Positions 48,379-51,757 of a DNA stretch of 64,000 bases are shown in pieces (the stretch's first letter is position 1; each line of letters starts with the position of its first letter). The DNA comes from Reyranella sp. CPCC 100927 (lineage in GTDB: Bacteria; Pseudomonadota; Alphaproteobacteria; Reyranellales; Reyranellaceae), in contig NZ_VOHA01000001.1 in assembly GCF_007859315.1 (NCBI RefSeq), positions 1,054,001 through 1,118,000 on the forward strand. Reading direction: 5' to 3'. Under the pieces are notes generated by a model. It had not been told where the DNA came from, ran no database searches, and saw nothing but the letters and a program-made list of their open reading frames with translations. Both the position numbers and the translations under genes were made by a program.

Positions 48379-48416
48379 GTCTCACGGGTGATGAGACAGT
48401 CTCACGAGAATGAGAC
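48379..48416. promoter_or_regulatory. tandem inverted-repeat enhancer (UAS) for the sigma-54 promoter
   Basis: Two tandem inverted repeats: GTCTCA-N7-TGAGAC (48379-48397) and GTCTCA-N6-TGAGAC (48399-48416), one base apart. Their centre is about 107 bases upstream of the sigma-54 promoter, a typical distance for bacterial enhancer-binding proteins, and a gene for such a protein faces this region. Confidence 0.7.
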
Positions 48417-48463
48417 GGTGATCGCCATCGGCGCGGACTTGCGGGCTCGCGATTGAGAAGAAG

Positions 48464-48476
48464 AATCAGCACTTTA
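48464..48476 (+). promoter_or_regulatory. IHF-like site
   Basis: AATCAGCACTTTA fits WATCARN4TTR with one departure from the strict consensus, and it lies between the enhancer repeats and the -24/-12 promoter, where IHF bends DNA in sigma-54 systems. Prediction by consensus only. Confidence 0.45.
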
Positions 48477-48503
48477 TCCAGTGCCTCCACCGTTGCTCCC
48501 GAC

Positions 48504-48518
48504 TGGCACGACACTTGC
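48504..48518 (+). promoter_or_regulatory. sigma-54 (-24/-12) promoter
   Basis: TGGCAC, 5 bases, TTGC exactly match the sigma-54 consensus, with the GG and GC dinucleotides spaced correctly. Transcription would start at about 48530, 50 bases before the LLM gene. Confidence 0.85.
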
Positions 48519-48579
48519 CAACCAAGGCGGGTGCGCACCTGCGCATCACATGGCGTGCCGCAACAGCGGGAGGAAAACG

Positions 48580-49680
48580 ATGGAACTTGGCTACTTCACG
48601 ATGCCGTCGCATCCACCGGAGTGTGGACTGAAGGAGGGGCATGACTGGGACCTGCAGGTCCTGCGCTGGCTCGACGAACTCGGCTATCAGGAAGCGTGGA
48701 TCGGCGAGCACCACACGGCGCCGTGGGAGCCGCATCCGGCGCCCGACCTCCTGGTTGCGCAGGCGTTCCTGCAAACCAAGAACCTGCGCATCGGTCCCGG
48801 CGGCTTCCTGTTGCCCTACCATCACCCCGCCGAACTGGCTAATCGCGTGGCCATGCTGGATCACCTGTCCAACGGCCGGTTGAATTTCGGCGTCGCGGCC
48901 TCGGGCCTGCCCAGCGACTGGGCGATGTTCAATGTCGACGGCATGTCCGGGCAGAACCGGGACATGACCCGCGAGGCGCTGGAGATCATCCTCAAGCTGT
49001 GGTCCGAACCGGCGCCGTTCAAATACGAGGGCAAGTACTGGACCGTGTCGAAGCCGGAGCGGATGTTCGACCTCCTGCAGCCGCACCTCAAGCCGGTGCA
49101 GGCACCGCATCCGCCGATCGGCGTCGCCGGCCTGTCCAAGAATTCCGATACCTTGAAGCTGGCCGGGGAGCGCGGGTTCATTCCGATGAGCCTCAACCTC
49201 AATCCCGCCTATGTCGCCAGCCACTGGGAGTCGGTCGAAGCCGGCGCCGCCAAGGCCGGACGCAAGGCGGACCGCAGGGACTGGCGGCTCGTGCGCGAGG
49301 TGTTCGTTGCCGATACCGACGAAGAAGCCTGGAAGCTGTCGACCGGCGACATGATGGGCCGGATGATGCGCGAGTACTTCCTGCCGCTGCTCGGCAATTT
49401 CGGCTTCAAGGACTATCTGAAGCATGCGCCTGACGTGCCGGACAGCGACATCACGGTGGAGTATTGCGCGCGCCGCAACTGGATCATCGGCTCACCGGCG
49501 ACCGTGGCCGAGAAGATCGACACCATCTATCGCGAGGTGGGTGGCTTCGGCGTGCTGTGCGTTTTCGGCTTCGACTACAAGCACAAGCCCGACGCGTGGC
49601 GCCGTTCGCTCGAACTGCTGAAGAACGAGGTGATGCCGCGCCTCAAGCATCTCGGTGCCGACCTGGTGAAAGCGGCATGA
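48580..49680 (+). CDS. LLM class flavin-dependent oxidoreductase (bacterial luciferase-like monooxygenase)
   Basis: A 366-residue TIM-barrel flavin monooxygenase: FAQ-type N-terminus MELGYFTMPSHPP, GYQEAWIGEHHTAPWEPHPA, and RLNFGVAASGLPSDWAMFNV. Similar proteins are often labelled limonene monooxygenase or alkanesulfonate-type; the substrate cannot be fixed from sequence. It needs FMNH2 from a partner reductase, none of which adjoins. ATG 48580 follows GGGAGGAAAA. It is the sole gene between the sigma-54 promoter and the terminator-like repeats. Confidence 0.9.
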   Translation: MELGYFTMPSHPPECGLKEGHDWDLQVLRWLDELGYQEAWIGEHHTAPWEPHPAPDLLVAQAFLQTKNLRIGPGGFLLPYHHPAELANRVAMLDHLSNGRLNFGVAASGLPSDWAMFNVDGMSGQNRDMTREALEIILKLWSEPAPFKYEGKYWTVSKPERMFDLLQPHLKPVQAPHPPIGVAGLSKNSDTLKLAGERGFIPMSLNLNPAYVASHWESVEAGAAKAGRKADRRDWRLVREVFVADTDEEAWKLSTGDMMGRMMREYFLPLLGNFGFKDYLKHAPDVPDSDITVEYCARRNWIIGSPATVAEKIDTIYREVGGFGVLCVFGFDYKHKPDAWRRSLELLKNEVMPRLKHLGADLVKAA

Positions 49681-49683
49681 CAT

Positions 49684-49890
49684 CCCGGGAGCGCGGGCGT
49701 CCCCGCGCTCCCAGGCAACCGCATATCGTCACGCACAACCTCATCCTGAGGAGCCGGCGCAGCCGGCGTCTCGAAGGATGGGCTGCAGTCGCGGTTTGTG
49801 TGATAGCCCACCCTTCGAGACGCTCGCTACACTCGCTCCTCAGGGTGAGGTCAGTGCCATATGCAATGGCGCCGCCCGCGCTCCCAGCGC
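49684..49890. repeat. nested intergenic inverted repeats
   Basis: The 223-base gap between convergent genes holds: a small hairpin GGGAGCGCGGG/CCCGCGCTCCC (49687-49712), an element whose arms span 49739-49765 and about 49826-49851 (CATCCTGAGGAGC...GCTCCTCAGGGTGAGG, with GTCTCGAAGGAT/TTCGAGACGC inside), and a loose copy of the first arm at 49873-49886. The GAGGAGC...GTCTCGAAGGATG type is common in alphaproteobacteria. Probably terminates both transcripts. Confidence 0.75.
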
Positions 49891-49903
49891 AGCGGAACGT
49901 GCT

Positions 49904-51757
49904 CTAGCTGTCGAGCTTGATCTTCAGACCCTTGATCTTGCGATAGAGGGTGGCGCGGCTCATGGCGAGTGCCTGGGCCGCGTCGCCGACGCGTCCGCCA
50001 TGGTCGCGCAGGGCCTGGACGATGGCGTTGTATTCGGCCATCCCGTGATCCGGCTCGGCGCGACCACCGCCGGGCACGGGGGGAAGGTCGAGGTCCGCCG
50101 CCTCGATGAGGCCATTCTCGGCCGTGCCACCGGCCAGTCGCAGCGCGTAGCGCAACTGGCGAATGTTGCCCGGGAAGGGGTACGACAGCAGCGTTGCCTG
50201 GGCGCCGGCGGACAGGCGGCAATGGGGTGCCTCTTCGCGCGCGAGGCGTGCGATCAGGTCGGCCTTGTCGGATCGCTCGCGCAACGCCGGCAGTCTGACC
50301 TCGACACCGAGGAGTCGATAGTAGAGGTCGGATCGGAAAGCGCCCGCTTCGACCATCGCGGCGAGATCGCGGTTCGTGGCACTGATCAGGCGGATGTCCA
50401 CGGGCACCGGCTTTCGTCCACCGAGCGGCCAGACCTCGCGATTCTCCAGGACGCGCAGCAGTCGCGTTTGCAGCGCCAGCGGCATGTCGCCGATCTCGTC
50501 GAGAAACAGTGTGCCACCGCTGGCCTGGACGATCAGTCCCTTGGCGCCCTCGCGGCGGGCACCCGTGAAGGCACCGGCTTCATATCCGAACAGTTCCGCA
50601 TCGATCAGGCTTTCGGGCAACGCGGCGCAATTCAAGGCGACGAAGCTCTTGTTGGCGCGGCTGCTCGCCGCGTGAATGGCGCGCGCGAAGACGTCCTTGC
50701 CGGTGCCGGTCTCGCCGCGCAGCAGGATCGGCAGATCGAGGTCCACCACCGCGGTCAGTCGTTTGACGCTCTTGGCCAGCGCCGGATCGCTTCCGGCGAG
50801 CGCGCTCAAGGCGGCAATACGTCGAGGCGTGGCTTCAATCGACCGCGTCGCGAAGGCCGGCCGCGCGGCCGGTGGCGTGATGTGCCCGTGCCCGATCAAG
50901 GTTCCATCGGCGCGACGGAATTCGATGGCCGCGCTCGGCGTCCGCATGCTGGCGTCGCTCAGCCTGATGAAACGCGATAGGTCGACGCCGGACTCGAAGC
51001 CGTTCGTCAAACCCAGGATCGACCGGCCGCGGCGGCAAGCACCGATGATGCGTCGGTCATCGTCATAGGCGATCAACCCCCGGCCGTCGTCTCCCGGCAG
51101 CGTCGCGATCCAGGCGTGATCGAAGCGCTTGCGGAAGATCGCGTGCTGGATCCGCCATGTCGCCTCCGACGTGATGGCAAACGCGAGCTGATGCGCGGCG
51201 CGATCGAAATCGCCGCGACAGGAGCTGATGTTCACGGCGCCCACCGGCTGGTCGTGGTGATCGAACAGCGGCGTTACCGCACACGTCAGGAATTTCCACT
51301 GATCACGGAAATGCTCGTCGCGATGCACCAGGATGGGACGCTGTTCCGCCAGGGCGGTACCAACGCCGTTCGTGCCCTCGAAGGCTTCCGCGAAATTGGA
51401 TCCCGTATAGATGCCGACCTCGCGGAACGTCGTCTCGTAGTCGCCACCGGGAAGATAGCTGACGAGCACGTTCGCATTGACGTCGGCGAAGTTGACGCAA
51501 TATCCCGCCTCGCGCAGGACGCGGGCCAGCGCTTCGAGCTCCGGCAGCGCCATTCGGATCAGCTCTTCGACCGGCTCCCGGACGCGGCTGATTTCGGCTT
51601 CGGTGAGCGTGTGGGGTGGTCCGCTGCGGGCTGGATCAAGTCGATGGTCGACCAGGCACCGACGCCATGACGCCGCGATCCGCGGGTCGGCATCCGCCCT
51701 GTGTTCCGCGGCCGACAAGACCTGGGCCACATGCTTTGAGAACCCGGAGGTGGTCAT
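49904..51757 (-). CDS. sigma-54-dependent Fis-family transcriptional activator
   Basis: A 617-residue enhancer-binding protein of the AcoR/DhaR type: an N-terminal GAF-like sensor (about residues 60-220), a linker, a AAA+ core with Walker A GETGTGKD (about 347-354), GAFTGA (about 393-398) for sigma-54 contact and Walker B GGTLFLDEIGD, and a C-terminal Fis helix-turn-helix (GDAAQALAMSRATLYRKIKG). ATG 51757 is used; ATG 51796 is possible. It faces the sigma-54-controlled LLM gene and is its likely activator. Confidence 0.94.
   Translation of the reverse strand: MTTSGFSKHVAQVLSAAEHRADADPRIAASWRRCLVDHRLDPARSGPPHTLTEAEISRVREPVEELIRMALPELEALARVLREAGYCVNFADVNANVLVSYLPGGDYETTFREVGIYTGSNFAEAFEGTNGVGTALAEQRPILVHRDEHFRDQWKFLTCAVTPLFDHHDQPVGAVNISSCRGDFDRAAHQLAFAITSEATWRIQHAIFRKRFDHAWIATLPGDDGRGLIAYDDDRRIIGACRRGRSILGLTNGFESGVDLSRFIRLSDASMRTPSAAIEFRRADGTLIGHGHITPPAARPAFATRSIEATPRRIAALSALAGSDPALAKSVKRLTAVVDLDLPILLRGETGTGKDVFARAIHAASSRANKSFVALNCAALPESLIDAELFGYEAGAFTGARREGAKGLIVQASGGTLFLDEIGDMPLALQTRLLRVLENREVWPLGGRKPVPVDIRLISATNRDLAAMVEAGAFRSDLYYRLLGVEVRLPALRERSDKADLIARLAREEAPHCRLSAGAQATLLSYPFPGNIRQLRYALRLAGGTAENGLIEAADLDLPPVPGGGRAEPDHGMAEYNAIVQALRDHGGRVGDAAQALAMSRATLYRKIKGLKIKLDS

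Follow-up and report, generated by a model that had tools for sequence, protein, structure and literature searches.

Our analysis of a 64,000-nucleotide stretch of the genome of Reyranella sp. CPCC 100927 (contig NZ_VOHA01000001.1, positions 1,054,001 to 1,118,000; hereafter, the window) identified what is very probably (roughly 85%), as judged from sequence comparison, a sigma-54 switch of the AcoR type that serves a single luciferase-like flavin monooxygenase (LLM). Downstream of ABC-permease and Rieske genes, two palindromes are followed by a -24/-12 element, one LLM gene (48580..49680, + strand; 366 aa; PF00296, 158.7 bits) and a convergent gene encoding a sigma-54 activator (49904..51757, - strand; 617 aa; translation might instead begin at a GTG further upstream, 51796). 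The original prediction of a single LLM gene faced by a GAF-AAA-Fis activator gene is confirmed by the Pfam domains and by the convergent orientation of the two genes.

The putative left operator (UAS-1, 48379..48397) is a GTCTCA-N7-TGAGAC palindrome centered 116 nt upstream of the -24 element, and the putative right operator (UAS-2, 48399..48416) is a GTCTCA-N6-TGAGAC palindrome centered 96.5 nt upstream of it, the two spacers differing in length by one base. These tandem inverted repeats, already predicted at 48379-48416, are borne out by the sequence: GTCTCA-N4..9-TGAGAC was found twice in the window versus 0.01 expected, and UAS-1 and UAS-2 are the only exact sites of this form in the whole 9.08 Mb genome (reversed control, 0). 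When the aligned upstream regions were searched with a relaxed pattern, 37 of 38 had a right palindrome whose end lies 82-87 nt from the -24 element. The left repeat has a degenerate right arm in most of the displayed Bradyrhizobium-type loci, while locus G917, from a third family, has one intact palindrome centered 116.5 nt before the -24 element and a degenerate right repeat.

The predicted sigma-54 promoter (TGGCAC-GACAC-TTGC; 48504..48518, + strand) is kept in orthologues. A match to the -24/-12 pattern is not rare by itself (0.19 expected by chance in the window; at least one match in 17 of 100 shuffles), and its weight therefore rests on conservation. The sigma-54 consensus has A or T directly after TTGC and the base at this position is C, so that the conserved TGGCAC-N5-TTGC match stands, its earlier description as perfect being slightly too strong. 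Sigma-54 itself (rpoN) is encoded in the genome (PF04552 match, 216.9 bits). A short hairpin (48530..48547, + strand) lies in the leader near the predicted transcript start; many Bradyrhizobium-type leaders have comparable short stems around CAAGA. The sequence AATCAGCACTTTA (48464..48476, + strand), noted earlier as IHF-like, is indeed one mismatch from the IHF consensus, a level reached by two of the 37 orthologous promoter spacers scanned, including that of the window, and by 0.6% of shuffles. Since 34 of these 37 spacers have three or more mismatches, like plain shuffles, we rejected an IHF site as a conserved part of the circuit, although the window itself may have one.

We compared 16 activator-bearing loci (13 of 20 hand-picked wide loci plus L029, L030, and G917; 15 Bradyrhizobium-type and one, G917, from the third family) with 17 loci that encode a related LLM and in which no activator was found, ten of them at 73-80% and viewed with a flank of only ~1.5 kb and seven at 85-87%; nine remoter LLM loci (L019-L026 and L028; 42-52%) were excluded from the comparison. 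The -24/-12 element is present in 16/16 activator-bearing loci versus 0/17 activator-less loci. The strict GTCTC-N4..10-GAGAC palindrome was found in 13 of the 16, and the remaining three (L144, L145, and L150) have a degenerate palindrome caught by a pattern that had been loosened to fit them; neither form occurs in any of the 17 activator-less LLM loci. In G917, a palindrome precedes the -24/-12 element, and the activator (56-59%), the LLM (82%), and the flavin reductase (66%) are all present.

The original prediction had staked itself beforehand on the repeats accompanying orthologues of the activator, and this is what was found among 257 Bradyrhizobium-type genomes, which belong to one genus and are non-independent, with only the window's genome and G917 standing outside it. 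The activator is present in 156 of them, and the composite site was detected in 134/156 activator-positive versus 10/101 activator-negative genomes (reversed-pattern control, 4/257). The exact site is missing in 22 of the 156, and is degenerate in the three of these that were read (G530, G645, and G691). In six of the ten activator-negative positives (G455, G460, G576, G584, G634, and G713), the site lies directly upstream of an LLM gene, suggesting that the activator there was lost, split or missed. Among the genus's 30 nearest LLM loci, the -24/-12 element is present in 29 and both repeat arms could be placed in all 30; in 29 of them the activator is outside the fetched flank or absent. On the LLM tree, the activator label needs two changes, which leaves room for either one clade of activator-bearing LLMs or several. 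As a separate observation, three of the seven activator-less Bradyrhizobium-type LLM loci (L155-L157) have the LLM gene next to oligopeptide ABC transporter genes in what looks like an operon, a group not seen in the activator-bearing loci.

The activator is a sigma-54-dependent bEBP, with a GAF domain (PF01590, 43.3 bits) ahead of an AAA+ domain (PF00158, 221.5 bits) that carries Walker A (residue 348), GAFTGA (395), and LFLDEIG (Walker B, 417) motifs, and a C-terminal Fis-type HTH (PF02954, HTH_8, 35.3 bits). AcoR has the same GAF-AAA+-HTH layout, its GAF domain being described in PMC10864463. In addition, the published AcoR sites, in the form in which they are quoted in PMC12648084 (which cites Ali et al., 2001 and Peng et al., 2020), contain GTCTC/GAGAC half-sites equal to those of the window, which bears out the earlier assignment of the activator to the AcoR type. 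In L033, L042, and L046, whose activators have 37-39% identity to that of the window, GTCTC/GAGAC palindromes likewise separate acoR-like from aco genes. The recognition helix reads SRAT[LF]YR in the window activator, L042, and L046 and PRATFYR in L033; it is not diagnostic, as several palindrome-less relatives share it. The palindrome is perfect in three of seven aco-linked activators and two mismatches off in the remaining four, and among 78 distant-activator loci there are seven perfect palindromes, four of them away from the activator. The two systems differ in target and orientation: AcoR acts on acetoin dehydrogenase and its gene is divergent from the target, whereas the proposed target here is the LLM monooxygenase and the two genes are convergent. 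No acetoin dehydrogenase genes were detected by Pfam scan among the nine neighboring genes (42-57 kb).

A second known regulator, DhaR, is under the control of two kinase subunits, DhaK and DhaL, and its PDB entries are complexes with both. Among PDB entries, only the N-terminal region of DhaR (PDB 4lrx) matched the sequence of the N-terminal 310 residues of the activator (E 0.0006), and it was also their best fold match, at 15% identity and with a poor whole-length superposition (rmsd 15.7). Autoregulation through the same operator was considered and rejected, as the 300-nt regions preceding the activator gene contain no -24/-12 element in 15/15 Bradyrhizobium-type orthologues. These regions have lone GTCTC or GAGAC arms, with GAGAC at 14-15 nt from the end in 14/15, a position at which it is read as part of a putative ribosome-binding site; the corresponding 300 nt in the window have neither a -24/-12 match nor a GTCTC/GAGAC arm.

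As to what the LLM does, it is possible, though doubtful, that it is a type II Baeyer-Villiger monooxygenase of the diketocamphane kind. The 3,6-diketocamphane 1,6-monooxygenase (PDB 4uwm, 5aec) is its nearest PDB relative both by sequence (8.6e-59; runner-up, 8.1e-17) and by predicted fold (ranks 1-4, 1.6e-32; next protein, 2.4e-20), and the two-component FMNH2 chemistry of this enzyme fits the flavin reductase gene found downstream of orthologous LLM genes. The same genome also encodes a second sigma-54 activator (37%, no GAF match) near LLM and alpha/beta hydrolase genes, a neighborhood that would suit ester formation followed by cleavage. Nevertheless, ~34% identity is too low to fix the substrate, no terpene or camphor genes stood out among the annotated neighbors, and the FMN ring contacts His10 and Ser44, as given in PMC4631483, are replaced by Met8 and Gly42 in the window LLM (sequence alignment, with chain index taken as residue number). 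The gene neighborhood gives no clue to the substrate because the intervening and flanking genes vary from locus to locus.

A flavin reductase gene lies 76-186 nt downstream of the LLM gene in 16/16 activator-bearing relatives and in 0/17 activator-less loci, and is absent beside the window LLM, where a dispersed-repeat hairpin (49738..49851) lies in the corresponding gap. The circuit had been called complete; the AcoR-type arrangement with a dedicated activator holds, but the missing flavin reductase does not fit that description, and the copy in the window may be in decay or have been rewired. A 42% relative of the missing reductase is encoded elsewhere in the same genome (C3:203274). A more speculative and rather improbable proposal treats the operators, promoter, LLM, flavin reductase, and activator as one self-contained regulatory cassette that can be transferred. 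It would be common across Bradyrhizobium, the window lineage would have acquired it, and its acetoin-type sensor would have been recruited to recognize the compound on which the LLM itself acts. This compound would be a small hydroxyketone or diketone, cleaved by Baeyer-Villiger oxidation in a soil or plant pathway of which we found no description.

It is very unlikely that the activator is a broader regulator with its main targets elsewhere and the LLM gene as one among several. By inspection, at least 13 of the listed composite-site matches are located elsewhere or differ in their site sequence, which speaks for such a role; however, these look mutually unrelated, save for a sequence common to G457 and G565, the match in G659 turns out to be the palindrome beside the LLM, read from the opposite strand, and the window's genome has no further copy of the exact palindrome. 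Sulfur scavenging, with a sulfone or sulfonate as substrate, is suggested by the SfnR-SfnG dimethylsulfone circuit, in which SfnG too is an LLM controlled by a sigma-54 activator. We rejected this highly improbable role, as the family models score far under cut-off (SfnG model TIGR04021, 32.6 bits versus 382.95; alkanesulfonate monooxygenase, 44.3 bits versus 518.2) and the activator has a GAF domain and an AcoR-type operator. Finally, UAS-1 starts 21 nt past the permease stop codon (48357) and both repeats could fold into 6-bp stems, but it is hardly credible that the repeats are terminator or attenuator hairpins ending the ABC-permease operon, or the operator of an unrelated repressor, with the LLM gene expressed by read-through, given that they co-occur with the activator, that orthologous repeats keep a similar distance to the -24 element despite differing upstream genes (a divergent DGOK gene in L030, an MscS-type gene in L139, and a divergent PrpF gene in G917), and that a pattern scan of 48340-49920 called no sigma-70 promoter or terminator on the + strand and a single terminator-like match (48468-48485) on the - strand.

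For the dedicated AcoR-type switch, we infer a mechanism that comprises binding, looping, ligand control, and FMNH2 use. Activator dimers would sit on the two GTCTCA/TGAGAC palindromes, which precede the -24 element by ~97 and ~116 bp, and a small molecule in the GAF domain, which may be the LLM substrate or a closely related metabolite, would cause the activator to oligomerize there. The oligomer would then loop to RNA polymerase-sigma-54 at 48504 and, by hydrolyzing ATP, open the promoter, which would confine LLM production to conditions in which the signal is present. For FMNH2 the enzyme would rely on a flavin reductase; relatives carry the reductase gene within the module, and in the window's genome the reductase would have to come from another place. 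Ligand-controlled activation of a two-component FMNH2 monooxygenase would be a further example of the known AcoR-type control; our literature search found no paper describing this LLM circuit.

Altogether, the switch looks real, its arrangement being common to relatives from two other families, and the comparison with AcoR suggests that the half-site is retained while the target of the activator changes. With a single activator, a single enzyme, and a promoter whose operator is defined, the locus offers a testable inducible switch, and a reporter on the LLM promoter would allow compounds to be screened for the substrate, which for luciferase-like monooxygenases is beyond the reach of sequence alone.

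Our analysis of the window locus identified a gene for a luciferase-like monooxygenase (LLM; 366 residues, 48580-49680 on the forward strand, PF00296) and, separated from it by a gap, a convergent gene for a 617-residue activator (49904-51757, reverse strand) with a GAF, a sigma-54 AAA+ and a Fis-type HTH domain and a GAFTGA motif. A left palindrome (GTCTCACGGGTGATGAGAC, 48379-48397) and a right palindrome (GTCTCACGAGAATGAGAC, 48399-48416) lie 5' of the LLM gene, followed by the -24/-12 element TGGCACGACACTTGC at 48504, and a sigma-54 gene was found in this genome. The window contains two matches to GTCTCA-N4..9-TGAGAC (0.01 expected), and these two sites are the only ones in the whole 9.08 Mb genome, where the reversed control gave no match; the -24/-12 match carries no significance on its own (0.19 expected in the window). 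A short hairpin (48530-48547) is located near the predicted transcript start of the LLM gene, and many Bradyrhizobium-type leaders have a stem around CAAGA, formed by AATGCG/CGCATT in some and CGCG/CGCG in others.

The original prediction was of a sigma-54 control circuit for a flavin monooxygenase, and conservation of the repeats beside activator orthologues had been set beforehand as its test. The repeats were kept in both close orthologues (66%) found in a scan of named genomes, the Bradyrhizobium loci L029 and L030, whose LLM orthologues (87-89%) are preceded by GTCTC/GAGAC repeats and a -24/-12 element. Genome G431, reached via its LLM, has the same upstream arrangement; since the named loci fall among members of its genus in the LLM tree, we take this genus to be Bradyrhizobium. 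In this genus, an LLM was detected in 222/265 genomes (E <= 1e-195) and the activator in 156/257 (E <= 1e-150).

Twenty hand-picked wide loci of the Bradyrhizobium type included 13 with a convergent activator and 7 with none. We compared an activator set (n = 16: these 13, L029, L030 and G917, a relative from a third family) with a set in which no activator was found (n = 17: the other 7 plus L010-L018 and L027, of 73-80% identity, scored as activator-free on only ~1.5 kb of visible flank); nine remoter LLM loci (L019-L026, L028) fell outside the identity limit. The -24/-12 match was present in 16/16 activator loci versus 0/17 related-LLM loci where no activator was found, as was a flavin reductase gene 76-186 nt 3' of the LLM gene (16/16 versus 0/17), while the strict GTCTC-N4..10-GAGAC palindrome was present in 13/16 versus 0/17. 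Degenerate palindromes occur in L144, L145 and L150, matched by a pattern loosened to fit these three, and lone GTCTC or GAGAC arms are present in some of the 17 loci of the second set. For the 30 LLM loci closest within the genus (L109-L138), both repeat arms stand at the expected places throughout, the -24/-12 match is missing from L132 alone (29/30), and the fetched flank of 29 loci contains no activator. When 38 upstream regions were aligned, conspicuous blocks were formed by the -24/-12 element, the repeats and a brief leader motif, and the right palindrome (relaxed pattern) ends 82-87 nt 5' of the -24 element in all except L126 (37/38). In L155-L157, also of the Bradyrhizobium type, an activator-free LLM gene has an Oxidored_FMN-family gene on one side and a small uncharacterised gene on the other, and an oligopeptide ABC transporter set comes after this group; this arrangement was annotated in L156 and assigned by similarity in the other two.

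A composite pattern (palindrome, 70-100 nt, -24/-12) was found in 144/257 genomes versus 4/257 for its reversed control. By hand-compiled lists, it occurs in 134/156 activator-bearing genomes versus 10/101 with no activator match, all of one genus and hence not independent. In six of these ten (G455, G460, G576, G584, G634, G713) the site is just 5' of an LLM gene; the other four (G457, G503, G591, G650) have different site sequences, and in G457 and G650 no LLM match adjoins the site among the matches listed. The three genomes read out of the 22 activator-bearing ones without the exact pattern (G530, G645, G691) have degenerate versions in the same place. A GTCTCTGACAATGAGAC stretch followed by a -24/-12-like match is common to G457 and G565, being in the latter a second site on a different contig from its LLM-gene site.

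Across the order, the activator was found in 9/397 genomes searched. The sole case from beyond the genus is G917 (59%), a member of another family. There, a convergent activator gene (56% along the full length) accompanies genes for an LLM (82%) and a flavin reductase (66%), and GTCTCAAAGCTGAGAC lies 5' of the LLM gene, centred 116.5 nt before TGGCATGGCGGTTGC, versus 116.0 nt between the centre of the window's left palindrome and its -24 element. Bradyrhizobium-type loci mostly keep the right site; in the window both are intact.

The window half-site equals that of the AcoR sites quoted in PMC12648084, namely CAGTTTGAGAC, credited there to Ali et al. (2001), and, from Peng et al. (2020), a longer one that includes GAGACAGATGTCTCA. 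In addition, three activators of 37-39% identity, from Paraburkholderia, Zoogloea and Azoarcus records (L042, L046 and, as its second activator, L033), adjoin acetoin-type genes (E1 dehydrogenase subunit in all three, AcoX-like kinase at L042 and L046), with a perfect GTCTC-N-GAGAC palindrome between the acoR-like regulator and the operon. Four further aco-linked activators (L039, L040, L045, L047) have a palindrome 2 mismatches off. Perfect palindromes numbered 7 across the 78 distant-activator loci scanned, and 4 of these lie apart from the activator. As judged from sequence, the window activator is thus AcoR-like in domains and operator, but its neighbourhood showed no acetoin genes.

The N-terminal 310 residues of the activator were modelled with a mean pLDDT of 90. 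The DhaR N-terminal region was their only PDB sequence match and best fold match, and most of the next fold matches were IclR-type ligand-binding domains, consistent with possible control by a small molecule or a protein.

The best solved relative of the LLM, both by sequence and by predicted fold (Foldseek 1.6e-32 versus 2.4e-20 for the next protein; model mean pLDDT 84), is 3,6-diketocamphane 1,6-monooxygenase. It should be noted that His10 and Ser44, FMN ring contacts of that enzyme according to PMC4631483, align with Met8 and Gly42 of the window LLM, which are invariant across 16 aligned relatives; we therefore refrain from the diketocamphane-type label. The flavin reductase gene (PF01613) adjoining the activator-bearing orthologues points to probable use of FMNH2. 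This gene is absent beside the window LLM, and a 42% relative is encoded elsewhere in the genome. Where activator-bearing relatives have the reductase gene, the window has a dispersed-repeat hairpin (49738-49851; folding energy -83.5 kcal/mol over 131 nt, z = -9.0), whose 16-base end motif has 26 genome sites at <=1 mismatch.

This genome has a second sigma-54 activator (L172, G000:C10, 5091-9693; 37% identity, no GAF match), whose gene diverges from those for an alpha/beta hydrolase and an LLM; TGGCACGAACCTTGC lies at 7263, and the 12 kb fetched contain no GTCTC palindrome.

Comparative evidence supports the sigma-54 circuit at the window LLM well, and activator binding, looping and ligand control would, as we infer, be parts of it. 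In the LLM tree, the window protein falls in the fork holding the Bradyrhizobium-type LLM rows (23 rows, support 97/86), while L027, this genome's second LLM, groups in a fork of 7 with members of its own family and two others. Of the 75 genomes searched in the family to which the window belongs, none but the window genome itself has the activator (E <= 1e-120). These results suggest horizontal acquisition. We regard the circuit as a new representative of AcoR-type sigma-54 switches.
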